From Novosphingobium sp. (GTDB taxonomy: Bacteria; Pseudomonadota; Alphaproteobacteria; Sphingomonadales; Sphingomonadaceae), in contig JADJYM010000013.1 of assembly GCA_016719755.1 (NCBI GenBank), forward strand, positions 2,501 to 66,500: a stretch of DNA of 64,000 bases. The letters are read 5' to 3'. A program made the position numbers and the translations under genes. A model generated the notes under the pieces. The model did no database searches, had not been told where the DNA came from, and saw only the letters and a list, made by a program, of their open reading frames with translations. Shown piece after piece: positions 40,991 through 54,981 of this stretch. Numbering within the stretch: position 1 is the stretch's first letter; each line of letters begins with the position of its first letter.

Positions 40991-42253
40991 TCAGGCCGGA
41001 ACCGGCGCCTCGGGCCGGACCGTGCGCCAGTCGTCCGCCTTGCTGACCATACCTTCGAACGTGAAGAGGTCGGCGTTGCGCCAGTCCTTTGCGGGCGGTT
41101 CGCTGTCGGCGTCCAGCGCTTGCTGGAGCATGATCTTGCGGAACTCCACGATGGCCCGGTCGCTCGATCCCAGCTTGTCATGGCTGCGGTCCGCGATCGG
41201 CCCCATCGATTCCCACATCGCCATGTCCTGGGTGGGGATGCCGGTGATCCCGGTGAAATCCCCCGCCTTCATCTTGTCCCGGTCCTGCAGGTAGTCGTTT
41301 TCAAGGTTGCGGAACTTGCGGAAAGTGACCGGGTCCAGATCCACCCCGGGCGTGGCGTCGCAGAAGCTGCGCCAGGCCTCGGTCGAGATGCCCTTCGTTT
41401 CGTGCCAGGCGATCCAGTAGAACATGCAGTTGGTATCATCGACCGGCACCAGCATCTGGTTGAGCCGGTAGCGGTCTGTCGGCGGGATCATCACCGAAAA
41501 CGGCGCCACGAACAGGGTGGTGCGCACGTAGTCCTGCTTGTCGGGATCGTGGATGGGCCGCCGGATCGCGGCATAGCGGAAGCCATAGGGGGTGCGTTCC
41601 ACTTCCAACCGGGGCGACTTGTCGGCAGACGGGCGCAGCCAGGCGCTGTCGGTGGCGGTGGAACTGTTCACGTCGGGCGCGGTGGGCATATTGGTGGAAT
41701 GGAGGCTGCTGGAATGGGCCGAATCGATCGCCCCTTCCAGCACCTGCGCCCAGTTGCAGGCGCCATGGATCTTCATGATCGCGATCTTGTCAGCCGGGGC
41801 CTTGGCCCAGACCGGCGGGTCGAACGGGGCGGGGTTTTCGGGATCGCCCAGCCAGGCCCAGACGAAGCCGCCCGCCTCGCGCACCGGATAGGCGCGGGTG
41901 CGCATGCTGTGCTGCAATTTCGCGTCGGCCGGTTCGGAGGACAGGTCGACCGCCTTGCCCTCCACGTCGAACTTCCAGCCATGGTACAGGCAGCGCAGCC
42001 CGCATTCCTCGTTGCGGCCATAGACCAGCGAGGCGCGGCGGTGGGGGCAGCGTTCATCAAGCACGCCGACGCGGCCCTGCGTATCGCGGAACACCACCAT
42101 GTCCTCGCCCAGCAGGCGGGCGCGGCGCGGGGCGCCGTCGGGCTCGGCCACTTCCTCGCTCATGCAGACGGGCAGCCAGTGGCGGCGCATCACCCGGCCC
42201 ATCGGGGCGTCGCCTTCGACGCGGCACATCAGGTCGTTCTGGCGGGGGGTCAT
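40991..42253 (-). CDS. Rieske non-haem iron oxygenase, alpha subunit (phthalate dioxygenase-like)
   Basis: A 420-residue aromatic-ring hydroxylating oxygenase. The Rieske [2Fe-2S] ligands are C69-x-H71 and C88-x2-H91 (CPHRRASLVYGRNEECGLRCLYHGW). The catalytic iron motif is D177..H180-x4-H185 in EGAIDSAHSSSLH. Size and layout fit the phthalate 4,5-dioxygenase/vanillate O-demethylase group that lacks a beta subunit. No dedicated reductase is adjacent. It is transcribed away from homologues of Pht4 and Pht5, which in phthalate catabolism act directly after this type of oxygenase. Confidence 0.93.
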   Translation of the reverse strand: MTPRQNDLMCRVEGDAPMGRVMRRHWLPVCMSEEVAEPDGAPRRARLLGEDMVVFRDTQGRVGVLDERCPHRRASLVYGRNEECGLRCLYHGWKFDVEGKAVDLSSEPADAKLQHSMRTRAYPVREAGGFVWAWLGDPENPAPFDPPVWAKAPADKIAIMKIHGACNWAQVLEGAIDSAHSSSLHSTNMPTAPDVNSSTATDSAWLRPSADKSPRLEVERTPYGFRYAAIRRPIHDPDKQDYVRTTLFVAPFSVMIPPTDRYRLNQMLVPVDDTNCMFYWIAWHETKGISTEAWRSFCDATPGVDLDPVTFRKFRNLENDYLQDRDKMKAGDFTGITGIPTQDMAMWESMGPIADRSHDKLGSSDRAIVEFRKIMLQQALDADSEPPAKDWRNADLFTFEGMVSKADDWRTVRPEAPVPA

Positions 42254-42285
42254 GACTGGCGACTCCGTGTCGATGGTTGCATGGC

Positions 42286-42307
42286 AATACTTCTAATGCG
42301 AAGTATT
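42286..42307. promoter_or_regulatory. 22-bp palindromic operator candidate, Rieske / Pht4-like promoter region
   Basis: AATACTTC (42286-42293) and GAAGTATT (42300-42307) are perfect complements around TAATGC. The site is 33 bases upstream of the oxygenase start and 47 upstream of the oxidoreductase start, so one dimeric repressor could control both. A MarR gene at the end of the rightward operon is the obvious candidate. The core CTTCTAAT is shared with the elements at 46804 and 47518. Confidence 0.6.
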
Positions 42308-42353
42308 TTGCATCTCAAGCGTCTTGCGCTAACAGGCTGCCAGGGAGGCGCGG

Positions 42354-43499
42354 ATGAGCTTGCGGCTGGCAGTGTTGGGATTGGGGCGCGGGGCCATGCT
42401 GACCGTGCCCGCGCTTGCCGCGCACCCCGCTGTGGAGATCGTCGCGGGCTGCGATCCGGATGGCGCGGCGCGCGCGGGCTTTGGCGGGCGGTGCTTTGAC
42501 AGCGCCGAGGCCCTGTTTGCCTGGGGCGGGTTCGACGCGGTCTACATTGCATCGCCGCACGAATATCACGCGGCCCACGCGGTGATGGCTGCGCGCGCGG
42601 GCAGGCACGCGCTGGTGGAAAAGCCGATGGCCGTCTCGCTGGCCGAAGCGGCGGCGATGGTCCGCGCGGCAGAAGCGGCGGGCACCGTGCTGATGGTCGG
42701 GCCAAGCCACGGTTACGATCCGCCGGTGGAACTTGCCGCCAGCCTGATCGAATCGGGCGATGCGGGGCCGCTGCGCCTGATCCATGCTTTTGCCTTTACC
42801 GATTTCCTCTATCGCCCGCGCCGCCCGGCAGAGCTTGATACGGCGCTGGGCGGGGGTGTGGTGTTCAGCCAGGCGACTCACCAGATCGACATGGCGCGGC
42901 GGCTTGCCGCCAGCCCGGTTGCCTCGGTCCGCGCCTGGACCGGCGGCTGGGGCGGGCGGGGCAGCGAGGGTGCCTTTACCGCGCTGCTGACGTTCGACAG
43001 CGGCGCGGCGGCCTCGCTCACCTATTCGGGGCAGGCGCGCTATGACAGCGATGCGCTGGCCGGCTGGGTGGGGGAGCTTGGCTGGGCGAAGCAGCCGCAG
43101 GCCCACGCCCGCACCCGCGCCGCGCTGGAGCGGACGGACGAAGCCGGGGCCAAGGCCGCGCGGACCTTCGCCGCGGGCTGGCCGCAACCGCAGGCGCCCA
43201 CGCACCATGAACACCTTGGCTCGCTGCTGGCGCTGTGCGAGCGGGCCGACCTGGAACTGACCCCGGACGGGGTGATCGTGCACGGCGACGATGGGCCGCG
43301 CGGCGTGGCCGCACCGCTTCCCCCGGTGAGCCGCGCCAATGTGGCCGAAGCCTTCGTGCGCGCGGTGGCGGGCGCCGCTCCGCCGCTGCTCAATGGCCGC
43401 TGGGGGCTGGAAAGCCTGGCCGTGTGCCACGCGATCCTTGCCTCGGCGCGCGAAGGGCGCGACGTTGTTCCCGCCGATCTCCTGACCGGCCTGATCTGA
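42354..43499 (+). CDS. Gfo/Idh/MocA oxidoreductase (Pht4-like dihydrodiol dehydrogenase)
   Basis: A 381-residue NAD(P)-dependent oxidoreductase. Its N-terminal Rossmann domain starts LRLAVLGLGRGAMLTVPALAAHPAVEIVAGCDPD, with the signature EKPMAVSLAEA and the C-terminal GFO_IDH domain (ALGGGVVFSQATHQIDMARRL). cis-Phthalate dihydrodiol dehydrogenase (Pht4) belongs to this family, and the next gene is a Pht5 homologue. I infer oxidation of a dihydrodiol made by the divergent oxygenase. The family is broad and the sequence alone does not prove the substrate. Confidence 0.88.
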   Translation: MSLRLAVLGLGRGAMLTVPALAAHPAVEIVAGCDPDGAARAGFGGRCFDSAEALFAWGGFDAVYIASPHEYHAAHAVMAARAGRHALVEKPMAVSLAEAAAMVRAAEAAGTVLMVGPSHGYDPPVELAASLIESGDAGPLRLIHAFAFTDFLYRPRRPAELDTALGGGVVFSQATHQIDMARRLAASPVASVRAWTGGWGGRGSEGAFTALLTFDSGAAASLTYSGQARYDSDALAGWVGELGWAKQPQAHARTRAALERTDEAGAKAARTFAAGWPQPQAPTHHEHLGSLLALCERADLELTPDGVIVHGDDGPRGVAAPLPPVSRANVAEAFVRAVAGAAPPLLNGRWGLESLAVCHAILASAREGRDVVPADLLTGLI

Positions 43500-43510
43500 A
43501 GGACCTGCCT

Positions 43511-44503
43511 TTGACCCGCCTGCCACTTTCGCTTGCCTGCTGGAACTATGACCGCACCCAGGCCCTGGCCGACGGGAGCGTCCGGCCCGACGGGATCGAC
43601 CTCAACCTGCAGGTGCTGGAGGTGGAGGAAACCTTTTTCCGGATGCTGCGCCACCGCGAATTCGACGCGGCGGAAATGTCGCTTTCGTCCTACTGCGTCT
43701 CGCTGTCGCGGCCCGATCCGGCCTTCATCGCCCTGCCGGTGTTTCCCAGCCGGATGTTCCGCCACGGCTGCATCTTCGTTTCCGCGAAAAGCGGGATCGA
43801 ACGCCCGCAGGACCTGATCGGCAAGCGGATCGGAGTGCCCGAATACCAGATGACCGCGCCGGTCTGGATCCGGGGCGTGCTGGCCGACGAATACGGCGTC
43901 GATCCCGCCAGCGTCACCTATTACACCGGCGGCGAGGAGCAGACCGGCCGCGAGGAGAAGCTGAAGCTGAACCTGCCCGAGCGGTTCCAGGTCATTCCCA
44001 TCGGCCCGGACCAGACCCTGTCGCAGATGCTGGCGGACGGAGAGATCGACGCGCTGCACACCGCGCGCATTCCCAGCACCTTCTATACCCGCCCGAACGA
44101 TGTGCGCCGCCTGTTCCCCGATTTCGTTGCCGTGGAGCAGGACTATTTCCGCCGCACCGGCCTGTTCCCGATCATGCACGTGGTGGCGCTGCGCCGCGAC
44201 GTTTACGAAGCCAACCGCTGGGCCGCGCGCGCGCTGTACAAGGCCTTTGCCGAGGCCAAGGCGCGCGTCGCGGAGGAACTGCTGGTCACGGCCTCGCTCA
44301 AGACCATGCTGCCCTGGCAGGTCGCGGCGGTGGAGCAGGCGCGCGGCCTGCTGGGCGATGACTGGTGGCCATACGGGCTGGAGGCCAACCGCGCGGTGCT
44401 GGACACGTTCCTGCGCTATCACCACGAACAGGGGCTGTCCCCGCGCCGGCTGGTGCCGGAAGAGCTGTTCGCGAAGGAATGCCTTGAAGAATTCCGCATC
44501 TGA
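43511..44503 (+). CDS. 4,5-dihydroxyphthalate decarboxylase-like protein (Pht5-like)
   Basis: A 330-residue protein homologous to 4,5-dihydroxyphthalate decarboxylase, a periplasmic-binding-protein-fold enzyme. Recognisable stretches are LPLSLACWNYDRTQAL, REFDAAEMSLSSYCVSLSR, IALPVFPSRMFRHGCIFV, GKRIGVPEYQMTAPVWIRGVLADEYGV and GEIDALHTARIPSTF. There is no signal peptide, consistent with a cytoplasmic decarboxylase rather than a transporter subunit. The start is TTG at 43511, placed by the GAAGGA that overlaps the preceding stop. It overlaps the MarR gene at its 3' end by 20 bases. Confidence 0.88.
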   Translation: MTRLPLSLACWNYDRTQALADGSVRPDGIDLNLQVLEVEETFFRMLRHREFDAAEMSLSSYCVSLSRPDPAFIALPVFPSRMFRHGCIFVSAKSGIERPQDLIGKRIGVPEYQMTAPVWIRGVLADEYGVDPASVTYYTGGEEQTGREEKLKLNLPERFQVIPIGPDQTLSQMLADGEIDALHTARIPSTFYTRPNDVRRLFPDFVAVEQDYFRRTGLFPIMHVVALRRDVYEANRWAARALYKAFAEAKARVAEELLVTASLKTMLPWQVAAVEQARGLLGDDWWPYGLEANRAVLDTFLRYHHEQGLSPRRLVPEELFAKECLEEFRI

Positions 44504-45054: not shown

Positions 45055-46764
45055 TCAGGCCGCCTGGTTGTAGAACTCCGTCGGCCCGGGATATTCGCGC
45101 CCGTCGTCCACCCCCACCTCGCGCGCGACCAGCGCGTTCACCATGGCGTTCAGCCGCAGCACGGTGCGGCGGTGCTTTGGATCATAGGCGAGGTTGACCA
45201 GTTCCTCGGGATCGGTCCGGGTATCGTACAGCTCAAGGTCGTTGAGCCGGTTCAGCGTTTTCCAGTCCTTCGGGGTATGGTGCTGGGCGGGCGCGAAATA
45301 GCGCGCGAACTTGTAGCGGCCATCGTGCACGCCCCGGTGCAGGCGGCGCTTGGTCAGGTCGAAGCGGCGGCTGTAATCGGGCTCTCCGCCGGGCAGGACG
45401 GCGCGGGCATCGTCCTTGTTCGGGGACGTGTCCCAGTAATGCGCCACCGCATAGTTGAACAGGTGCCCGGCCCGGTCGCGCGGCGTGGGCAGGGCGGGAT
45501 CGCCAAGCAGGCTGGCCACGTTGTAGCCCGGCAGGTTCGGGAATTTCTGCGCAGTCCATTCGTCCGATTGCCCGGCCAGCGACAGCAGCGTGGGCGCGAT
45601 GTCGATCGCGCTCATCAGGGCATCGGTGCTGCGCCCCCCGGCAAAGTCGGGATGGGCGATGATCATCGGGATCTGCATATCCTCGCGGTAGATCGTCGCG
45701 CCTTTCTGCCGCATCCCGTGCGCGCCGGCCCGATCGCCGTGATCGCTGGTGTAGATGATGATCGTGTTGTCGATCTGCCCGCTGGCCTTGAGCGACCACA
45801 GCAGCTGTTCCAGCCGCCGGTCCACGTCGCGCAGGCAGTTGTAGTAGTAATTGACGTAGCGCTTCCACGAAGCCTCGTCGCTACGGTCCATCCGGCCATA
45901 GAAGGCGTTGTTCTGCGCCACGACCGCGCGGTGCGCCTCGGGCTTGGTCGACAGATCGTCTTCATAGAAACTGCGCGGCAGGGGGAAGCCGTTGTCGACC
46001 TCGTACAGCGGATCGCCCGGCTCGCGCCGCAGCGGGGCGAGGATATCCGGGTGGCTGCGGCTTTCGGCCTGCTTGCCGGTCGCGTCGTAGAACATGATGT
46101 CGTGCGGATTGACCAGGCCGACCACCTGGAACCACGGCTTGCCCCCGGTCTTCATCCCCTTGGCATAGTCGATGATGTTGCGCGCGGCGTCGGCGGCCAC
46201 GTACATGTCGGAGCGGTAGCCGTCCCAGGTCAGGCCCACTTCCTCGCCATCGAAGCCGTAGTCGTGGAACCCGTACTTTTCCATCGAGCGGGCGGTGTTG
46301 GGATATATCCCGCCCGGCGCGCGATTCCAGCCGCGATCGTGGTTGATGCGGGAAAGGTGCCACTTGCCCTTGTAGCTGGTGTAATATCCCGCCGCCTGCA
46401 TCATGTGGCCCAGTGTCGGCAGGGTTTCCGCCGCGACCGGGTGGGGGGCGTTGTCGCTGTTGAGGAACAGCCCGGTCTGCTGGGTGTGGCGCCCCTGGAA
46501 AATGGTCGAGCGCGATGGCGTGCAGGGCGTGGTGTGGATGTGGTAGTTCTTCACCAGCATCCCGCGCGACAGCAGTTCGCGGTGCGCGGGCAGCTTTTCC
46601 AGCAGCCCGGCGGGCCAGCTGGCCAGGCCCTGTTCCTGATCGGTGACGATCATCAGCACGTTCATCGGACGGCTGCGCGCGGCGCCCGCCCTGCCGCCGA
46701 TCCCGGCAGCGGCAAGCGCGCCGATTCCGCCAATCATGCTGCGACGGTCGATGTTCCAGGTCAT
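45055..46764 (-). CDS. Sulfatase, probably Tat-exported
   Basis: A 569-residue sulfatase-family hydrolase of the alkaline phosphatase superfamily. The formylglycine signature is C81-T-P-S-R85, with metal ligands at TDQE (D42) and in YTSDHGD. The N-terminus DRRSMIGGIGALAAAG (R7-R8) looks like a twin-arginine signal, implying periplasmic folding after cytoplasmic assembly; formylglycine then needs a sulfatase-modifying enzyme elsewhere. The ATG at 46764 is preceded by GGAG. It is divergent from a MarR gene that shares a palindromic promoter element, so desulfation of an imported sulfate ester may feed the pathway. Confidence 0.92.
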   Translation of the reverse strand: MTWNIDRRSMIGGIGALAAAGIGGRAGAARSRPMNVLMIVTDQEQGLASWPAGLLEKLPAHRELLSRGMLVKNYHIHTTPCTPSRSTIFQGRHTQQTGLFLNSDNAPHPVAAETLPTLGHMMQAAGYYTSYKGKWHLSRINHDRGWNRAPGGIYPNTARSMEKYGFHDYGFDGEEVGLTWDGYRSDMYVAADAARNIIDYAKGMKTGGKPWFQVVGLVNPHDIMFYDATGKQAESRSHPDILAPLRREPGDPLYEVDNGFPLPRSFYEDDLSTKPEAHRAVVAQNNAFYGRMDRSDEASWKRYVNYYYNCLRDVDRRLEQLLWSLKASGQIDNTIIIYTSDHGDRAGAHGMRQKGATIYREDMQIPMIIAHPDFAGGRSTDALMSAIDIAPTLLSLAGQSDEWTAQKFPNLPGYNVASLLGDPALPTPRDRAGHLFNYAVAHYWDTSPNKDDARAVLPGGEPDYSRRFDLTKRRLHRGVHDGRYKFARYFAPAQHHTPKDWKTLNRLNDLELYDTRTDPEELVNLAYDPKHRRTVLRLNAMVNALVAREVGVDDGREYPGPTEFYNQAA

Positions 46765-46958: not shown

Positions 46959-47465
46959 GTGGCAGACAAGCCATCGGGCGTGCGGCATCCAGCCGAATAT
47001 TACACCAATCCGGAAAACAGCATCGGCTATCTGGCGCGGATCGTGTTCCGCTCGTTCTCGCGGTTGCTGGAACGGGGCACGCTGACGCGCAGCGTCTCGG
47101 CCGGGCAGTGGCGGTTCCTGCGCCAGCTGTGGCGCGAGGACGGGATCACCCAGCGCGAACTGAGCGAGCGGGTGGGGATGCGCGAGCCGACCACCGTGGT
47201 GGCGGTCAAGGGGCTGGAAAAGGCGGGCCTCATCACCCGCACCAAGACGCCTGACGATCGCCGCAAGACCTTCATCCACCTGACACCCTATGCCCGCAGC
47301 CTTGAGCTGGAACTCGCGCCGTTCAACGCCGAGATTCACGAGATCGCGACCCGGGGGATGACCGAGCAGGAGGTGGAAACCATGCAGGTGCTGATGCGCC
47401 GGGTGATCGCCAACCTGGCCGAGGAAAACGCCAAGCTTGAACTGGAAAGCGATCTCCAGGCCTGA
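46959..47465 (+). CDS. MarR family transcriptional regulator
   Basis: A 168-residue winged-helix protein: GYLARIVFRSFSRLLE, then SAGQWRFLRQLWREDGITQRELSERVGMREPTTVVAVKGLEKAGLITRTKTPDDRRKTFIHLTPYARSLE, and a C-terminal dimerisation helix. The start is GTG at 46959 with AAGGGGAAG upstream. It stands between the sulfatase and the catabolic operon starting at 47559, each of which carries a TTAG-N4-CTA element upstream, so it is a plausible local repressor of both and of itself. Confidence 0.9.
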   Translation: MADKPSGVRHPAEYYTNPENSIGYLARIVFRSFSRLLERGTLTRSVSAGQWRFLRQLWREDGITQRELSERVGMREPTTVVAVKGLEKAGLITRTKTPDDRRKTFIHLTPYARSLELELAPFNAEIHEIATRGMTEQEVETMQVLMRRVIANLAEENAKLELESDLQA

Positions 47466-47558: not shown

Positions 47559-48143
47559 GTGACCGGAATTGCAGTTCTGGCGGGCAGCACGCGCGAAGGA
47601 TCGTTCAACCGGGCACTGGCGGCAGCGGCAGCGCGCGCGCTGGAGGCGCAAGGGGCGCACGTCACCGTGATCGACCTGGCCGACTACGACCTGCCGCTCT
47701 ATTCCGCCGCGCTTGAGGCGAACGCCTTTCCGCCCGATGCGCGGCGGCTGAAGCAGGTGCTGGCCGCGCAGGCCGGATTGCTGGTGGTGACGCCGGAATA
47801 CAACGGCTCGATCCCGCCGCTGCTCAAGAACGCGATCGACTGGGCCTCGCGCCCCACGGATGGCGAGGCGATGCTGGCGCTCAGCGCCTATCGCGGCAAG
47901 GCGGCGGCGGTGATGTCGGCCTCGCTCAGCCCGTTCGGGGGCCTGCGGGCGGTGACGCACCTGCGTCAGATCCTCTCCACGGTGCAGATGCTGGTGATCC
48001 CCGAACAGGTCCAGCTGCCCGCCGCGCACACGGCCTTTGCCGAGGATGGCACTCTGAAGGACGCGATGGCCGCATCGCTGGTGGACCTGACCGCCGCCAG
48101 TCTGGTGCGCGTTGCGGCAGCCCTTGCGCAGGGCGGGCGATAG
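47559..48143 (+). CDS. NADPH-dependent FMN reductase
   Basis: A 194-residue flavodoxin-fold reductase. It opens GIAVLAGSTREGSFNRALA (FMN phosphate loop GSTREGSFN) and has the family motif VTPEYNGSIPPLLKNAIDWASRP. It supplies reduced flavin or reduces quinones. The start is GTG with a GGGGGCAG upstream. It heads a rightward operon; reduced FMN might serve an oxygenase encoded in the island, but no flavin-dependent monooxygenase is visible here. Confidence 0.9.
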   Translation: MTGIAVLAGSTREGSFNRALAAAAARALEAQGAHVTVIDLADYDLPLYSAALEANAFPPDARRLKQVLAAQAGLLVVTPEYNGSIPPLLKNAIDWASRPTDGEAMLALSAYRGKAAAVMSASLSPFGGLRAVTHLRQILSTVQMLVIPEQVQLPAAHTAFAEDGTLKDAMAASLVDLTAASLVRVAAALAQGGR

Positions 48144-48183: not shown

Positions 48184-49818
48184 ATGGACGGTTTGATGCA
48201 GAACGTGCCGCTGACGGTCGACCGGGTGATCGACCATGCGGCAGCCTGGCATGGCGGGCGCGAAGTGGTTTCGCGCGATGCGGACGGGCGGGTAACGCGC
48301 ACCACCTACGCCGCTGTCCATGCCGACGCCAAGCGGGTCTCGAACGCGCTGGCCGCCGAAGGAATCAAGCCCGGCGACCGGGTTGCGACCATGGCCTGGA
48401 ACGGCGCGCGGCACCTTGCCGCATGGTACGGCGCATCGTGCATGGGGGCGGTGCTCCACACGCTGAACCCGCGCCTGTTCATGGAACAGATCGTCTATAT
48501 CGCGAACCATGCGGGCGACCGGCTGCTGCTGGCCGATCCCGCGATTGCCGATCTGGTGGGGCAACTGCTGCCGCAGGTGCCCAGCATCGAAAAGGTGGTG
48601 TTCCTGTGCGACCGGGCCTCCATGCCCGCCACCGCCTATCCCGCCGTGGCTTTCGACGACTGGATCGCGCCGTATCCCGCCGACCATGCCTGGGGCCAGT
48701 TCGGTGAGAATACCGCCTGCGGGCTGTGCTATACCAGTGGCACCACCGGCAATCCCAAGGGCGTGCTCTATTCGCACCGCTCCAATTACATCCACGCGCT
48801 GATGACGCTCCAGCGCGACGCGCTGGCGCTGTCGGCGCGCGATACGGTGCTGCTGGTCGTGCCGATGTACCATGCCAACGCCTGGGGCGTGGTGTTCTCC
48901 GCGCCGATCGTCGGGGCCAAGCTGGTCCTGCCGGGGCAGCGGATGGACGGGGAATCGATCTACAACCTGATCGAGCAGGAAGGCGTCACCTATTCCTCCG
49001 CCGTGCCGACCGTGTGGCAGATGCTGCTGCAATACGTGCAGGAGAACGGCAAGCGGTTCAGCACGCTCCAGCGCGTTACCATCGGCGGTTCGGCCTGCCC
49101 GGAATCGATCGTCCGCACTTTCCGCGACGATTACGGGGTTGACGTGATCCAGGGCTGGGGGATGACCGAAACCTCTCCGCTGGGCACCGTTTCGGTCCCC
49201 AATGCGGCGGTGGCGGCAATGGATGACGATGCGCAGCTGGCCCACAAGCTGAAGCAGGGACGGCTGCTGTTCGGGCTGGACATGAAGCTGGTCGACGATG
49301 CCGGAAACCGCCTGCCGCATGACGGCAAGACCCCGGGGCGGCTGTTGATCAAGGGGCCGACGATTGCCTCAGGCTATTTCGGCGGCGATGGCGGCGATGT
49401 GCTGGACGGCGAAGGCTTCTTCGATACCGGCGATGTCGCCACCATCGACGCGCAGGGCTATATGCAGATTACCGACCGGGCCAAGGACGTGGTCAAGTCC
49501 GGCGGCGAATGGATCAGCTCGATCGAGATCGAGAACATCGCGATGGGCCACCCCGCGCTTGCCAATGCCGCCGTGGTGGGCGTGGCCCATCCCAAGTGGG
49601 ACGAGCGCCCGATCCTGATCTGCCAGCTGAAGCCCGGCGCCAGCGCCAACGCGGACGAGCTGCGCGGCTTCCTGACCGGGAAGATCGCCACCTGGTGGAT
49701 GCCCGACGACGTGCTGTTCGTGGACGAAATCCCGCTCGGCCCGACTGGCAAGATCGACAAGAGGGCGATCCGTGCGGGCCTCACCGGCTACAAGCTGCCG
49801 TTCGAGGCGAGCCGCTGA
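48184..49818 (+). CDS. Acyl-CoA synthetase (medium/long-chain, AlkK-like)
   Basis: A 544-residue adenylate-forming ligase with P-loop [11 protein letters not shown] (183-193), GWGMTETSPLGTV, the A8 region DTGDVATIDAQGYMQITDRAKDVVKSGGEWISSIEIEN and the C-terminal GPTGK lysine at about 523. The motif set ([32 protein letters not shown]) is that of AlkK-like medium-chain acyl-CoA ligases, a branch different from the other ligases here. It is the second gene of the operon starting at 47559 but may have its own promoter. Confidence 0.93.
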   Translation: MDGLMQNVPLTVDRVIDHAAAWHGGREVVSRDADGRVTRTTYAAVHADAKRVSNALAAEGIKPGDRVATMAWNGARHLAAWYGASCMGAVLHTLNPRLFMEQIVYIANHAGDRLLLADPAIADLVGQLLPQVPSIEKVVFLCDRASMPATAYPAVAFDDWIAPYPADHAWGQFGENTACGLCYTSGTTGNPKGVLYSHRSNYIHALMTLQRDALALSARDTVLLVVPMYHANAWGVVFSAPIVGAKLVLPGQRMDGESIYNLIEQEGVTYSSAVPTVWQMLLQYVQENGKRFSTLQRVTIGGSACPESIVRTFRDDYGVDVIQGWGMTETSPLGTVSVPNAAVAAMDDDAQLAHKLKQGRLLFGLDMKLVDDAGNRLPHDGKTPGRLLIKGPTIASGYFGGDGGDVLDGEGFFDTGDVATIDAQGYMQITDRAKDVVKSGGEWISSIEIENIAMGHPALANAAVVGVAHPKWDERPILICQLKPGASANADELRGFLTGKIATWWMPDDVLFVDEIPLGPTGKIDKRAIRAGLTGYKLPFEASR

Positions 49819-49963: not shown

Positions 49964-51094
49964 ATGATGGACCCCAACGGGATCGAAGGGCTGGACGCCA
50001 CTTTCATCGGGCGGACATCGCCCACCGCGCCGCGCATTCAGGCGGGTGGGCATCCGTGCCAGGGCATCTACTGGACCCAGGCCGGCAAGCGCCCGAAGGT
50101 CGCGATCATCGCCACGCACTACAACGTCGACTTCTCCGAACATTACATCGCCCCCTATTTCGCGCGGGCTGGGTTCGGGTTCCTGGGCTGGAACACCCGC
50201 TACCGGGGGTTCGAGGACACGTTCATGCTGGAACACGCGGTGCTGGACATCGGCGTGGGCGTGCGCTGGCTGAAAGAGGAAGCGGGCGTGGAGGCCGTGG
50301 TGATCCTCGGCAATTCGGGCGGCGGTTCGCTGATGGGCGCCTATCAGGCCGAAGCCATCGCTCCGACCCTGACCGACCGGTTGCCATCCGTGGGCCAGGA
50401 TGCGCTGGCGCAGCTTATCAAGGGCGATCTCTACATCTCGTTCAACGCGCACCAGGGCCGCCCCGAAGTGCTGACCGACTGGATGGACGCCTCGGTCATC
50501 GACGAGAACGATCCGGTGGCGACCGATCCTTCGCTCGATCCGTTCAACCCGGATAACGGCCCGCCCTATTCGGCGGAATTCGTCACCCGCTACCGCGCGG
50601 CGCAGCGCGCGCGCAACCAGCGGATCACCGACTGGGCCAAGGCGGAACTCGCGCGGCTCAACGCGGCTGGCGTGCCCGACCGGATTTTCCCGATGTTCCG
50701 CTGCTGGGGCGATATCCGCTGCGTTGATCCCACGCTCGACCCGTCGGACCGCAAGCCCAACTGGTGCTATCGCGGCGATCCGGCGATTGCCAACCGCACC
50801 CCTTCCATCGGGCGGGCCAATACGCTGAAGACCTGGCTCAACATGTGGAGCCTTGAAACCTCGCCGTGTCAGGGCAAACCCCACCTCGCCAAGCACGATA
50901 CGCCCGCGCTGGTGGTGCAGGGCACCGCCGATACCGGCGTGTTCCCCAGCGATGCGCGCGCGATGTTCGATTTTCTGGGGACGAGCGACAAACGGCTCGA
51001 ACTGATTCCCGGCGCGCATTATTTTGAGGATTCGCTGGCCGAGCGGCAGAACGCCGCCGACCTCGTCAGCGCGTGGATCCGGGAGAAGCTTTGA
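49964..51094 (+). CDS. Alpha/beta hydrolase family protein
   Basis: A 376-residue alpha/beta-hydrolase. The nucleophile elbow is GNSGG (S118), preceded by VEAVVILGN; the acid is probably in GTADTGVFPSD and the histidine in PGAHYFED. It is larger than simple esterases owing to an insertion (residues about 150-280) rich in Trp/Arg/Asp. The RBS AGGAGAG precedes two adjacent ATGs (49964, 49967). Its stop overlaps the kinase start (TGATG). It may hydrolyse an ester, lactone or thioester of the pathway. Confidence 0.88.
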   Translation: MMDPNGIEGLDATFIGRTSPTAPRIQAGGHPCQGIYWTQAGKRPKVAIIATHYNVDFSEHYIAPYFARAGFGFLGWNTRYRGFEDTFMLEHAVLDIGVGVRWLKEEAGVEAVVILGNSGGGSLMGAYQAEAIAPTLTDRLPSVGQDALAQLIKGDLYISFNAHQGRPEVLTDWMDASVIDENDPVATDPSLDPFNPDNGPPYSAEFVTRYRAAQRARNQRITDWAKAELARLNAAGVPDRIFPMFRCWGDIRCVDPTLDPSDRKPNWCYRGDPAIANRTPSIGRANTLKTWLNMWSLETSPCQGKPHLAKHDTPALVVQGTADTGVFPSDARAMFDFLGTSDKRLELIPGAHYFEDSLAERQNAADLVSAWIREKL

Positions 51095-52074
51095 TGGATG
51101 ATGGCGCCGCACAGTTGATCGAGGCTCTGCGCGGCGCCGCCCTGATCGGAGCGGAACCGCCCGATCTGGTGCCGCTGACCGGCGGGGTTTCCTGCGACGT
51201 CTGGAAGCTCGAAACGCCCTCCGGCCCCGTAGTGGTCAAGCGCCCGCTGCCGCAATTGCGGGTCGTCGCGCTGTGGGAAGCGCCGGTGGAGCGGGGCACG
51301 GCAGAAGTGCGCTGGCTGCGCCGGGCGCAGGGGATCGATCCCGCGCTGGTGCCAGAAGTGCTGGCCGATTTTCCCGAGCTCCACGCCTTTGTCCTGCGCT
51401 TTATTCCCGGTTGCCCGGTGTGGAAGGACGAACTGATCGCGGGCCGCGTCGATCCGGCCTTCGCGGCGATGGTGGGCAGCGGGATCGCCAGGGTTCATGC
51501 CGCCACCGCCTTCAATCGGTCGGACCAGGCGTCCTTTCCCAACCAGGCGATGTTCAGCGCGCTGCGGCTCGATCCGTTCTTCCTGCACGCGGCGCGGCAG
51601 GATGCGGAGCTGGCTCCGGCGCTGCACGGGCTGGTCCACCTGTTCAGCGATCACGGGATCGCCCTGGTCCACGGCGATGTCAGCCCCAAGAACATCCTCG
51701 TCGCGGCGCAAGGCCCGGTGTTCCTTGACGCGGAATGCGCGACCTGGGGCGATCCGGCCTTTGACCTTGCGTTCTGCACTACGCACCTGCTGCTGAAAGC
51801 GGTCTGGCTGGATAGCGAGGCGCTGCGCGATGCGGCCGCCGCGATGGTTTCAGCCTATGCGGCAGGGATTGACTGGGAACCGCCCGCGGACTTCATGGCC
51901 CGCGCCGGGGCCTATTGCGCCGGGCTGCTGCTGGCACGGATCGAGGGCAAGTCGCCCGCGCCCTACATGACCGACGATCTTCACAAGACCACCGTGCGCG
52001 CGCAGGCGCGCGCCCTGCTGCTGCGTCCGCAGCCGCTCGATGCGCTGGTGGCGCAATGGCAAAGGACCCTTTGA
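51094..52074 (+). CDS. APH/ChoK-type phosphotransferase
   Basis: A 326-residue kinase of the aminoglycoside phosphotransferase fold. The catalytic loop is H193-G-D195 in LVHGDVSPKNILV and the metal aspartate is in FLDAECATWGDPAFDLA; the ATP-binding lysine is probably in GPVVVKRPLPQ. In catabolic settings such kinases phosphorylate small hydroxy compounds, as LvaA does with 4-hydroxyacyl-CoA in levulinate catabolism. Here it is locked by TGATG overlaps between a hydrolase and an enolase paralogue, suggesting that the phosphorylated product is the enolase-like enzyme's substrate. Drug resistance is unlikely. Confidence 0.88.
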   Translation: MDDGAAQLIEALRGAALIGAEPPDLVPLTGGVSCDVWKLETPSGPVVVKRPLPQLRVVALWEAPVERGTAEVRWLRRAQGIDPALVPEVLADFPELHAFVLRFIPGCPVWKDELIAGRVDPAFAAMVGSGIARVHAATAFNRSDQASFPNQAMFSALRLDPFFLHAARQDAELAPALHGLVHLFSDHGIALVHGDVSPKNILVAAQGPVFLDAECATWGDPAFDLAFCTTHLLLKAVWLDSEALRDAAAAMVSAYAAGIDWEPPADFMARAGAYCAGLLLARIEGKSPAPYMTDDLHKTTVRAQARALLLRPQPLDALVAQWQRTL

Positions 52075-53372
52075 TGACTTCGCGTATCCTCTCCGTCACC
52101 GGCCGCCAGATCTGGGATTCGCGCGGGCGACCCACGGTGGAGGCAGAGGTCGTGCTGGAATCGGGCGCGCTCGGCCGCGCCATCGCCCCGGCTGGAGCAT
52201 CGCGCGGAGCGCATGAAGCCATCGACCTGCGCGACGGTGGCGAGGCGTTCGGCGGCTTTGGCGTTAACCGGGCCGTGGCCGGGATCGCGGCGGAAATTGC
52301 GCCTGCGCTGATCGGCATGGACGCGCGCGAGCAGGCGGCGATCGATGCCGCGCTGTGCGAACTCGATGGCACGGCGAACAAGGCGCGGCTGGGGGCGAAC
52401 GCGATTGTCGCCGTCTCGCTCGCGGTGCTTCACGCCGCCGCCGATCATGCGCGCGAGCCGCTGTGGCGATACCTTGCGGGCGGGCGCAAGGTTCGCCTGC
52501 CGCTTCCGGAAATCCAGATCTTCGGCGGCGGCGCCCATGCCGGGCGGCGCACCGACGTGCAGGACTTCATGGTGATGTGCCCGAAAGCGGGAACGTTCCG
52601 CCGCGCGCTGGAAATCACCGCCGATGTCTACCGTGCGGCGGGCCGCCTGATGGAAGCGCGCGGGCCATTGTCGGGCGTGGCGGACGAAGGCGGCTGGTGG
52701 CCGGACTTCGCCTCCAACGAGGATGCGCTCGACGTGCTGACCAAAGCCATCGAGGCAAGCGGCCACCGCGCGGGCGAGGACGTGTGGATCTCGCTCGACA
52801 TTGCCGCCAACGAACTGGGCGATGCTGCGGGCTACACGCTCGCGCTTGATGACCGGCGGCTGTCGGGCGGGGAGATGGCGGGCCGGATCGTGGAGTGGTG
52901 CAACCGCTATCCGATCCTTTCCATCGAGGACCCGGCTGGGCAGGACGACTGGGACAGCGTGGGGGCCGTCACCGCCGCTGTCGGGAACCGGGTGCAGATC
53001 ATCGGCGACGATGTGCTCGTCACCAATGCCGCGCGGGTGGAACGCGCCGCAGCTGGCAATGTGGTCAACGCTGCGCTGATCAAGGTCAACCAGGTGGGGA
53101 CCGTGACCGAGGCCAAGGCCGCGCTCGATGCCGCGCTGGCCCAGGGCTGGGGGGCAATCGTTTCGGCGCGTTCGGGCGAGAGCGAGGATGTGGCCATCGC
53201 ACACCTGTCGACCGGCTGGGACGCCGGGCAACTGAAGGTCGGCAGCTTCACCCGCTCCGAACGCATGGCCAAGTGGAACGAAGTGCTGCGGATCGAGGAA
53301 GCGATGGGCGCGGACGCCGTTTACGCTGGTGCCAGCGCCTTTGCGGCGCCGATCCGCGAGGCGCTGGCATGA
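52074..53372 (+). CDS. Enolase paralogue with altered active site
   Basis: A 432-residue enolase-family protein aligning end to end with glycolytic enolase. The catalytic pair is kept (E205 in ADEGGW and K337 in LIKVNQ, equivalent to E. coli E208 and K341), as are the metal ligands in ISLDIAANEL, SIEDP and GDD. Changed are the phosphate-loop histidine (E. coli H369 is A365 in SARSGESED), the mobile-loop threonine (GASTG becomes GASRG, R44) and E. coli E167 (D164). It should still abstract a proton and stabilise an enolate, but on a different substrate from 2-phosphoglycerate. It is coupled to the APH-type kinase upstream (TGATG) and to a 2-hydroxyacid dehydrogenase downstream (ATGA). Confidence 0.9.
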   Translation: MTSRILSVTGRQIWDSRGRPTVEAEVVLESGALGRAIAPAGASRGAHEAIDLRDGGEAFGGFGVNRAVAGIAAEIAPALIGMDAREQAAIDAALCELDGTANKARLGANAIVAVSLAVLHAAADHAREPLWRYLAGGRKVRLPLPEIQIFGGGAHAGRRTDVQDFMVMCPKAGTFRRALEITADVYRAAGRLMEARGPLSGVADEGGWWPDFASNEDALDVLTKAIEASGHRAGEDVWISLDIAANELGDAAGYTLALDDRRLSGGEMAGRIVEWCNRYPILSIEDPAGQDDWDSVGAVTAAVGNRVQIIGDDVLVTNAARVERAAAGNVVNAALIKVNQVGTVTEAKAALDAALAQGWGAIVSARSGESEDVAIAHLSTGWDAGQLKVGSFTRSERMAKWNEVLRIEEAMGADAVYAGASAFAAPIREALA

Positions 53373-54289
53373 TCGTGCTGCATGCCCGCCCCAGCCCCGG
53401 GTTTCGCGCGGCGGTGGACACGATTTTCGGCAAGGACGTGGTGGTCCATGTTGACGAGGCCGCGCCGCTCGATTCCGTTGCGGGGGAAATCACCGCGCTG
53501 CTCCATGTCCTCACCCCGGTGACGGCAGACTTCATCGCCTCCGCGCCGAACCTCAGGCTGATCCAGAAGCTGGGGGTGGGGGTCAACACCATCGCGCTCG
53601 ATGCGGCACGCGCCCACGGCACGGCGGTGTGCAACATGCCCGGCACCAACAGCCAGGCGGTCGCCGAAATGGCGCTGTCGCTGATGATGGCCGTGCTGCG
53701 CCGCACCTGCTTTTTCGATGCCCGCACCCGCGCGGGCGAGGGCTGGACGGCCGATCCTTCGGAACTCGACAATGTCGGGGAAGTGGCCGGGCGCACGGTT
53801 GGCCTGGTCGGGATCGGCAATTCGGCGCAGCGGCTGGCCCCGGTGCTGGCCGCGCTGGGGGCCAGGGTGGTCTATACCGCGCGGTCGAAGCGCGAGGTGC
53901 CTTACGAATACCTGCCGCTGGACCAGTTGCTGGCGCAAAGCGACATCGTTTCGCTGCATATCCCGCTGACCGAGGAGACGCGCGGCCTGATCGATCCCAC
54001 GGCGATGAAGCCGGGCGCGGTGCTGATCAACACCGCGCGCGGCGAACTGGTGGACGAGGGGCGGCTGGTAGCGGCGCTGGCCAGCGGCCACCTGCGCGGC
54101 GCTGGGCTGGACGTGTTCGCCGCCGAGCCGGTCCCGGCCGATAATCCGCTGCTTGGCCTGACAAACGTGGTGCTGGCCCCGCACATCGCCTGGCTCACCC
54201 CTGAAACGCTGGTCCGCAGCCTGAAGGTCGCGCACGAGAACTGCCGCCGCCTGACCGCTGGCGAGCCGCTGCTGCACCAGGTGGTGTGA
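53369..54289 (+). CDS. D-2-hydroxyacid dehydrogenase (NAD-binding)
   Basis: A 306-residue dehydrogenase of the D-isomer-specific 2-hydroxyacid family. Its catalytic triad is R224 (INTARGEL), E253 (DVFAAEPVP) and H272 (LAPHIAW). The nucleotide-binding loop is VGLVGIGNSAQRLAPVLAALGARVVY. It interconverts a 2-oxoacid and a 2-hydroxyacid. The start overlaps the enolase-like gene by 4 bases and its stop overlaps the next gene (TGATG). An oxoacid released by the enolase-like enzyme would be a natural substrate. Confidence 0.9.
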   Translation: MIVLHARPSPGFRAAVDTIFGKDVVVHVDEAAPLDSVAGEITALLHVLTPVTADFIASAPNLRLIQKLGVGVNTIALDAARAHGTAVCNMPGTNSQAVAEMALSLMMAVLRRTCFFDARTRAGEGWTADPSELDNVGEVAGRTVGLVGIGNSAQRLAPVLAALGARVVYTARSKREVPYEYLPLDQLLAQSDIVSLHIPLTEETRGLIDPTAMKPGAVLINTARGELVDEGRLVAALASGHLRGAGLDVFAAEPVPADNPLLGLTNVVLAPHIAWLTPETLVRSLKVAHENCRRLTAGEPLLHQVV

Positions 54290-54981
54290 TGGGCCTGCCA
54301 ATTGTTCTTATCACCGGGCAGTTGCTGACGGACGCGGTATGGCAGCCGCTGCTGGATGCCTGGGGCGACCGCGAGGTGATCGTCGCCGACAACCGCAGCG
54401 ACGATACGATTGCCGGTTTTGCGACCCGCCTGCTGGACAGTGCCCCGCCGCGCTTCGTCCTGATCGGCCACGCGATGGGCGGCTTCGTCGCGTTCGAAGT
54501 GATGCGCCGCGCGCCGCAGCGTGTGGCGAAGCTGGTGCTGATCTCCACGCTCGCCTCTGCCGATGGCCCGGCCCAGACCGCGCGGCGGCAGGGCTACATC
54601 GATCTGGTTCAGGCGGGCAAGTTCGAGACCGTGGTGGAGGAGCGGATTCCGATCCTGTTTCCCGAGGCCCGGCGCGGCGACGAACGCCTGCTTGGCATTG
54701 CCCGGCAGATGGCCGCCGAGACGGGCGCGGAAACTTTCCTGGCCCAGCAGCGTGCAATCATGGCGCGCGAGAACAGCCGCCCCCGGCTTGGCGAGATCGC
54801 CGTGCCCACACTGGTGATCTGGGGCGAGGAGGACGGCATCACCAGCCGTGCCCATCAGGAAGAGCTTGTCAGTTTGATTGACGGTTCCCGGCTTGCCGTC
54901 GTGCCCGGCGCGGGGCACCTGGTCACGCTTGAAGCGCCCGAAGTTGTGGTGCCCCTGGTGGATGCCTTCTTGGACGCCTAG
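54289..54981 (+). CDS. Alpha/beta-hydrolase fold protein lacking the nucleophilic serine
   Basis: A 230-residue protein with the alpha/beta-hydrolase fold (VLITGQLLTDAVWQPLL; VLIGHAMGGFVAFEVM; VIWGEEDGITSRAHQEEL; VPGAGHLVTLEAPE). The elbow expected to read GHSMGG reads GHAMGG, with alanine at residue 62, while the acidic residue and histidine remain. An ordinary serine-hydrolase mechanism is therefore unlikely; lyase or other chemistry without a covalent intermediate is possible. It is the last gene of the operon, coupled by TGATG. A GTG 3 bases earlier is a possible alternative start. Confidence 0.87.
   Translation: MGLPIVLITGQLLTDAVWQPLLDAWGDREVIVADNRSDDTIAGFATRLLDSAPPRFVLIGHAMGGFVAFEVMRRAPQRVAKLVLISTLASADGPAQTARRQGYIDLVQAGKFETVVEERIPILFPEARRGDERLLGIARQMAAETGAETFLAQQRAIMARENSRPRLGEIAVPTLVIWGEEDGITSRAHQEELVSLIDGSRLAVVPGAGHLVTLEAPEVVVPLVDAFLDA

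Follow-up and report, generated by a model that had tools for sequence, protein, structure and literature searches.

What does an enolase do when its gene is set between those of a small-molecule kinase and a dehydrogenase, in a genome that already holds a glycolytic enolase elsewhere? The question is raised by a stretch of 64,000 nucleotides from Novosphingobium sp. (NCBI GenBank assembly GCA_016719755.1, contig JADJYM010000013.1, positions 2,501 to 66,500 of the forward strand), hereafter the window, in which five plus-strand genes at 49964-54981 encode an alpha/beta-hydrolase-fold protein (ABH1), an APH-type kinase, an enolase paralogue, a D-2-hydroxyacid dehydrogenase (2HADH) and a second alpha/beta-hydrolase-fold protein (ABH2). 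An earlier reading of this DNA from its letters, hereafter the sequence-only reading, described the five genes as joined by overlapping codons, and start and stop codons do overlap at all four junctions (TGATG, TGATG, ATGA and TGATG, in order, with overlaps of 1, 1, 4 and 1 bases). The same reading treated the enolase as a paralogue that works with the kinase. The comparisons presented here support this, in that the enolase is not the ordinary glycolytic one and forms a conserved pair with the kinase, and they point to a step of catabolism, so far undescribed, in which an acid is phosphorylated. Few enzymes in biology are regarded as so invariant as enolase; the evidence for a changed one is given first.

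The comparisons cover 112 loci, namely the window, three loci of the same genus, 8 of 40 listed plasmid hits, 20 regions picked among the hits of two genome searches, and the 80 best-ranked of the 574 relatives that a scan of named genomes yielded; 105 distinct loci are left after six duplicates and one short row are set aside. The scan returned at least 587 stretches matching two clade peptides and at least 574 encoding a relative. One of its peptide patterns includes a Trp beside Glu211 and the other a Gly that replaces Asn, while residues 168 and 373 lie outside both. The window enolase is full length, with both enolase domains (PF03952, 166 bits; PF00113, 280 bits) and 472.8 bits to TIGR01060, whose cut-off is 300, and it is 45% identical to the second, canonical enolase of the 3.7-Mb window genome. 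Canonical enolases accompany the paralogue in all 30 genomes searched (a 31st paralogue genome, G149, 62% complete, was left out of this search) and share 65-100% identity with the canonical copy of the window genome.

Residues are given here in yeast numbering; at sites and for roles beyond those named in the two enolase papers cited below, the numbering and the functions are what we take them to be. Asp stands at Glu168 and Ala at His373 in 112 of 112 aligned paralogues, and the double exchange is seen in 105 of 105 distinct paralogues and in 0 of 18 other enolases, the latter including four extra copies from the same genus. The metal ligands Asp246, Glu295 and Asp320 are kept in all 112, as are His159, Glu211, Lys345, Arg374, Ser375 and Lys396; Ser39 is kept in 111, with one alignment gap. 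A passage of PMC5237310 states that yeast enolase requires His159, Glu168, Glu211, Lys345, His373 and Lys396, and by that list the paralogue retains four of the six residues that would mark an EC 4.2.1.11 enzyme. For the Chloroflexus enolase, a passage of PMC4450660 names Glu165, Glu206, Lys338, Arg367 and Ser368 as contacts of 2-phosphoglycerate, and these would map to yeast positions 168, 211, 345, 374 and 375. Near Glu211 a Trp occupies position 214 in 88 and position 215 in 104 of the 105, and Ala replaces Ser36 in 103; the counts at the Trp and Gly sites are partly built in, because the scan was steered by those two patterns. Thr40 is replaced by Arg or Lys in 85/112. Since the metal ligands, Lys345, Glu211 and Arg374/Ser375 are kept, binding of a 2-phospho acid and removal of its C2 proton are probably still within the reach of the paralogue; the exchanged residues would lie on the presumed C3 side of the pocket.

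The paralogues also stand apart by descent. In a quick tree, 104 of them form one clade (SH-aLRT 100), outside which the copy of Sphingobium TomTYG74 (L079) falls on a long branch of unsure placement. This copy has D168 and A373 and lacks both Trp, and because it carries the former without the latter, the D168/A373 exchanges may predate the Trp pair. Decay of a spare gene is ruled out for the clade, given an open frame of at least 400 amino acids in 111 of 112 and the kept metal and base residues; the short one (336 amino acids, in two tblastn pieces) is that of Rhizobium sp. RCAM05350 (L081). The window-type enolase is not the glycolytic enolase. To ordinary enolase (TIGR01060; EC 4.2.1.11) it is alike in both domains, the metal ligands, the base Lys345, the acid Glu211 and the phosphate-side Arg374/Ser375, and differs from it in E168D and H373A, in the Trp that most copies have beside Glu211, in having a kinase partner and in being an additional copy. 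A separate event is seen in four extra enolases (L043, L044, L045 and L046, from the same-genus genomes G002, G021, G030 and G006), which keep Glu168 and His373, branch with the canonical enolases and represent a second, different duplication in the genus.

The kinase is the constant companion of this enolase. By profile search, a member of the window kinase's subfamily is present in 109 of 112 paralogue loci, often in catabolic settings, lying directly upstream on the same strand in 95 and elsewhere in the locus in 14; the same search found none in the other three loci (L137, L143 and L146) and none in 31 loci of other enolases, 26 of which are only about 3-4 kb long. Because those 26 control loci are so short, the like-for-like comparison is that within 1.5 kb of the enolase, where the kinase is found in 92 of 105 distinct paralogue loci versus 0 of 31 controls. 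A chance neighbourhood is rejected, since the subfamily kinase is linked in 109 loci, and the two proteins also diverge together: distances in the kinase follow those in the enolase, with an r of 0.91 for 100 pairs and of 0.85 for the 52 pairs from outside context type A (defined below), for which 1000 permutations gave a maximum r of 0.24. Members of the APH superfamily carry the signature HGDxxxxN, DxE and a nucleotide Lys. All of these are found in the window kinase, as K48, HGDxSPKN (H192, G193, D194 and N199) and DAE (D211, A212 and E213), and they are invariant in 33 of 33 homologues. The nearest solved relatives by sequence are 2pyw, an uncharacterised protein, and methylthioribose kinase. 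That any APH-type neighbour would serve is likewise ruled out, as the window kinase scores 474 bits with the subfamily profile, whereas none of the seven other APH loci scored, of eight found in the genome, exceeds 38. The canonical enolase of the window genome does have another, different APH-family protein 1.3 kb away.

The surroundings of the pair vary, and a label rule of this analysis was used to sort the 105 distinct loci into context types; counts of FAH, SDR, HpaD-like VOC and ABH1/ABH2 genes are partly circular, because the rule used those genes. Type A (51 loci, mostly from sphingomonads and Caulobacteraceae, the window included) comprises, in varying completeness, genes for MarR, FMN reductase, CoA ligase, ABH1, kinase, enolase, 2HADH, ABH2, MetE-like, VOC and CMD proteins. 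Type B (10 loci from Rhizobium, Paraburkholderia, Cupriavidus, Trinickia and Sphingobium) has an HpaD-like extradiol dioxygenase (271 bits, under the cut-off of 321), FAH, CMD, cupin and ADH genes, with 2HADH in nine of the ten and phosphoenolpyruvate (PEP) carboxylase in five. Type C (11 loci, with three more designated C2) groups kinase, enolase and FAH; type C also has SDR genes, and LacI in 8 of 11, and several of its loci carry a ugp-type sugar transporter. In the 30 loci of type D the kinase-enolase pair has no or varied neighbours. In one genome (G299) a canonical enolase is accompanied by a pair of D168/A373 paralogues (L086 and L087), of which one has type A and the other type C surroundings.

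A 2-oxoacid reductase, either 2HADH or the unrelated PanE, occurs within 10 kb in 75 of the 105 distinct loci (49/51 of type A, 9/10 of type B, 0/11 of type C, 3/3 of type C2 and 14/30 of type D), and in 49 of the 51 type A loci the 2HADH is within 1.5 kb of the enolase. The reductase is of the PanE type in six type D loci, and in three of the loci studied (L165, L177 and L182) a PanE gene directly precedes the kinase on the same strand. The 2HADHs of Rhizobium and Sphingobium (type B) share 35% and 29% identity with that of the window. Because the reductases come from the 2HADH and PanE families and from diverged 2HADHs, reduction of a 2-oxoacid is read as having been recruited repeatedly beside the kinase-enolase pair. 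On a plasmid of Rhizobium sp. Pop5 (L076:17825-22645), PEP carboxylase, 2HADH and APH kinase genes form a single run, and the enolase gene lies on the other strand. The Rhizobium PEP carboxylase aligns over nearly its full length as an ordinary one, by which a diverged carboxylase matched to a modified substrate is ruled out. Around the window operon no labelled gene encodes a PEP carboxylase, the window genome itself having not been searched for one.

The comparisons show which genes are present, how they are linked, which residues are exchanged, that the paralogues form a clade and that a canonical enolase co-occurs with them; the reactions, their order and the kind of acid we infer as follows. 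The 2HADH, or the PanE-type enzyme in other loci, would reduce a 3-hydroxy-2-oxo acid to a 2,3-dihydroxy acid, whose 2-hydroxyl the APH kinase would then phosphorylate at the expense of ATP. The enolase paralogue, with both metal ions, a Lys345-type base and a Glu211-type acid, would strip the C2 proton and the 3-hydroxyl to leave an enol phosphate, and this would pass to central metabolism, in Rhizobium perhaps via the PEP carboxylase of the same run. Phosphorylation at O2 followed by loss of the 3-hydroxyl is the simplest chemistry because the kinase is nearly always beside the enolase, and a reductase acting before the kinase fits at least as well as a dehydrogenase acting after the enolase, because PanE precedes the kinase in the three loci named above and, in Rhizobium, 2HADH and kinase are accompanied by PEP carboxylase. 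E168D, H373A and the new Trp beside Glu211 would reshape the pocket around C3, and the substrate would then not be 2-phosphoglycerate. A C3-substituted acid is favoured because plain glycerate offers no visible gain for replacing two residues listed as required, beside a canonical enolase. We thus put forward, tentatively and with a confidence that stops somewhat short of even, that the pair, fed by a 2-oxoacid reductase, converts a 2,3-dihydroxy acid to PEP or, more likely, to a C3-substituted PEP. The wider idea, that the clade is non-glycolytic and forms with its dedicated kinase a general device by which C3-substituted 2,3-dihydroxy acids, derived from aromatic compounds and sugars as these are broken down, are phosphorylated and dehydrated to substituted phosphoenolpyruvates, is possible and is offered with greater reserve. 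We know of no description of substituted phosphoenolpyruvates as catabolic intermediates.

Several observations weigh against this proposal. The reductase partner is not universal, because type C and 16 of 30 type D loci are without 2HADH or PanE: neither was found within 10 kb in any of the 11 type C loci or in those 16, some of these loci being cut by contig ends. The reductase of type B is mostly non-adjacent as well (within 1.5 kb in 1 of 10). E168D is a conservative exchange, the ordinary type of the Rhizobium PEP carboxylase suits PEP itself as well as an analogue, and the sequence leaves the carbon skeleton of the substrate unfixed; to our knowledge no activity has been described for any member of the clade.

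One of the closest known parallels leads to a different substrate, glycerate. In the serine cycle, hydroxypyruvate is taken to oxaloacetate by hydroxypyruvate reductase, glycerate 2-kinase, enolase and PEP carboxylase, which are the kinds of reaction proposed here and in the same order, and PEP carboxylase is present in the five of ten type B loci mentioned; the module around the paralogue differs from that segment in its APH-family kinase and in an enolase with an altered active site. The operon might accordingly serve glycerate salvage, the 2HADH or PanE reducing hydroxypyruvate to D-glycerate, the kinase being a new glycerate 2-kinase and the paralogue a specialised enolase isozyme for D-2-phosphoglycerate that yields PEP. 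The Rhizobium set of reductase, kinase, enolase and PEP carboxylase resembles the serine-cycle segment, recurring neighbours are absent from many type D pairs, which would suit a product of central metabolism, and the FAH hydrolases of type C could free glycerate from hexonates, two of them (L077 and L149) scoring 342 and 330 bits to the model for 2,4-didehydro-3-deoxy-L-rhamnonate hydrolase, with its cut-off of 500. Yet the canonical enolase present in all 30 genomes would already do the job, and two residues that the passage of PMC5237310 lists as required have been replaced in every paralogue. Moreover, the glycerate kinases known in 2007 fall, in a passage of PMC2063504, into three families (classes I, II/MOFRL and III) that do not include APH, the family of the window kinase. 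We therefore consider D-glycerate a rather unlikely substrate. Were the acid L-glycerate instead, the kinase would produce L-2-phosphoglycerate, which the canonical enolase could not use, and the paralogue would be an enantiomer-specific enolase leading to PEP. This would explain a dedicated enolase in which the phosphate-side and metal residues are kept and those of the C3 side are changed, and sugar-type clusters ending in FAH hydrolases could deliver L-glycerate; it is nevertheless very unlikely, for dehydrogenases of the D-isomer type and PanE normally yield the R product, and the kept Lys345-type base favours the same face.

The order given by the sequence-only reading is another matter, because there the kinase and the enolase act first, as an ATP-driven dehydratase whose enol phosphate is hydrolysed to a 2-oxoacid, which is then reduced by 2HADH or, in sugar-type clusters, processed and cleaved by SDR and FAH enzymes. 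A hydrolase would, in that reading, release the hydroxy acid beforehand. The dehydrogenase gene of the window does follow the enolase gene, and an arrangement of kinase, enolase, FAH and SDR recurs in the sugar-type clusters. Two annotated plasmids had prompted a related idea, namely that the pair substitutes for a sugar-acid dehydratase. Dehydratases of the IlvD/EDD and MR/MLE families were searched for in 11 genomes or records and by a local comparison with queries from these loci, which distant dehydratases could escape. An IlvD- or MR-type dehydratase is present in 6 of 11 type C loci (L092, L097, L100, L169, L176 and L178), inside the same gene run in L176 and 8 kb downstream of the enolase in L100, and was not found in the stretches examined of the five other type C loci, one of them a 10-kb contig, or of the three C2 loci. 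As a rule, replacement of a dehydratase by the pair fails on those six; they also count against the kinase-first order, which the five and the three would suit, and the PanE gene ahead of the kinase in L165, L177 and L182 counts against it too. We judge that order to be quite unlikely. The known pathway of 2,4-didehydro-3-deoxy-L-rhamnonate hydrolase resembles type C in its SDRs and in its FAH hydrolase, to which those of L077 and L149 are related, and differs in that type C adds the kinase-enolase pair.

The sequence-only reading named the APH-type kinase step of levulinate catabolism as its parallel, and the comparison is apt only as far as the kinase acts first. In the lva system and with ACAD10/11, a passage of PMC12440821 describes an APH-type kinase that readies a hydroxy acid for loss of its hydroxyl; there the partner is acyl-CoA dehydrogenase-like and the substrates are CoA esters, whereas here the partner is an enolase, not an LvaC-type protein, and nothing indicates a CoA ester. 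A kinase directed at the 3-hydroxyl, with a paralogue that expels phosphate and not water, as LvaA/LvaC and ACAD10/11 do for 4-hydroxyacyl-CoA, would agree with the use of APH-type kinases in kinase-activated hydroxyl removal (the same passage of PMC12440821), with changed residues on the presumed leaving-group side and with the Arg or Lys in place of Thr40. It is highly improbable, as the residues by which enolase holds the 2-phosphate (Arg374, Ser375 and the metal-II ligand) are unchanged apart from one gap at Ser39, and the acidic Glu211 and Asp168 would repel a 3-phosphate. As to novelty, which the sequence-only reading had also suggested, the open-access full-text literature searched gave no description of the kinase-enolase pair, most subscription papers lying outside that search.

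If, as in the favoured route through a C3-substituted acid, the clade acts on 2-phospho acids other than 2-phosphoglycerate, hundreds of genomes (at least 574 related stretches) carry a mis-named enzyme, the metabolic models built on those genomes have an error in a central step, and there is a route via substituted phosphoenolpyruvates still to be assigned. The public records examined name members of the clade phosphopyruvate hydratase or enolase without warning, the former label being found in three plasmid records. The clade is, in addition, a natural experiment on the roles of Glu168 and His373 in enolase. Of 396 genomes sampled from the order, 22 carry the paralogue, as do 9 of 398 sampled from the phylum (the window genome being counted in both); the E-value was set to exclude canonical enolases, and a copy as divergent as the TomTYG74 one would escape it. 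Among the best 80 of the 574 relatives, the names read as Proteobacteria of several orders, and the closest named relative for the window enolase is a Novosphingobium metagenome assembly (93% identity). The enolase query also matches 683 Escherichia plasmid records, none of which is among the best matches listed.

The genes of the operon and those preceding it are listed below.

Table 1. Genes of the kinase-enolase operon and of the segment ahead of it, in window coordinates.
Feature	Position	Strand	Basis
MarR-family regulator	46959..47465	+	Pfam MarR, 58.6 bits
NADPH-dependent FMN reductase-like protein	47559..48143	+	PF03358, 148 bits
Acyl-CoA ligase	48193..49818	+	PF00501; NCBIfam PRK06018, 841 bits (cut-off 766)
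ABH1, alpha/beta-hydrolase-fold protein, nucleophile elbow GNSGGG	49964..51094	+	Weak, sub-threshold Pfam hydrolase matches
APH-type small-molecule kinase	51094 (ATG)..52074	+	PF01636, 63 bits, over cut-off
Enolase paralogue, E168D and H373A (yeast numbering)	52074 (ATG; alternative 52056)..53372	+	PF00113/PF03952, TIGR01060
D-2-hydroxyacid dehydrogenase (2HADH; 2-oxoacid reductase)	53369..54289	+	PF02826, 171 bits
ABH2, alpha/beta-hydrolase fold, GHAMGG without nucleophile Ser	54289..54981	+	PF00561/PF12697

The acyl-CoA ligase and FMN reductase that the sequence-only reading placed ahead of the operon lie there on the same strand, and the MarR-family gene before them is likely the cluster's regulator. 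Of the 50 other distinct loci of type A, 45 have a homologue of it (MarR2) and 34 an FMN reductase homologue; the latter also occurs in 6 of the 10 loci of type B. The two proteins that had been called a hydrolase and a hydrolase-fold protein do have the alpha/beta-hydrolase fold, but the first matches Pfam only below the curated cut-offs, and the second has lost its nucleophile. The ABH1 elbow is kept in 51 of 53 labelled copies, with duplicates and the window counted, whereas Ala replaces the nucleophile Ser of ABH2 in 46 of 46 copies scored, window counted, one of them read by eye as THAMGG. ABH2 is thus, as judged from its motif, probably a conserved, non-hydrolytic member of the fold, and the word hydrolase may misname it because that Ser is gone throughout. 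The 2HADH matches 21 NCBIfam models and reaches the cut-off of none of them. The block of kinase, enolase, dehydrogenase and ABH2 is intact in three same-genus genomes, in one of which the surroundings are rearranged.

Beside the operon, at 40991-44503, lie genes for a LigXa-type Rieske oxygenase, a GFO/IDH oxidoreductase and what we take to be a relative of 4,5-dihydroxyphthalate decarboxylase (its sole match being NMT1), a set that probably serves aromatic demethylation or ring oxidation and also accompanies the operon in L040, L041, L091 and L104. In many type A clusters a LeuC/LeuD-like aconitase-family pair sits between regulators (e.g., L041:3826-5838), its LeuC being present in 28 of 50 type A loci, and it may be a maleate- or malate-type hydratase of aromatic breakdown. 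It is not an essential part, having no match within 10 kb of the window enolase and being unlabelled in the nearest relative (L104). Where this pair is found in L040 and L041, the window has a sulfatase-family gene (45055-46755) on the strand opposite to the operon. Outside the operon, at 36.8-39.2 kb of the window, acyl-CoA dehydrogenase genes were assigned by reading, with no family search.

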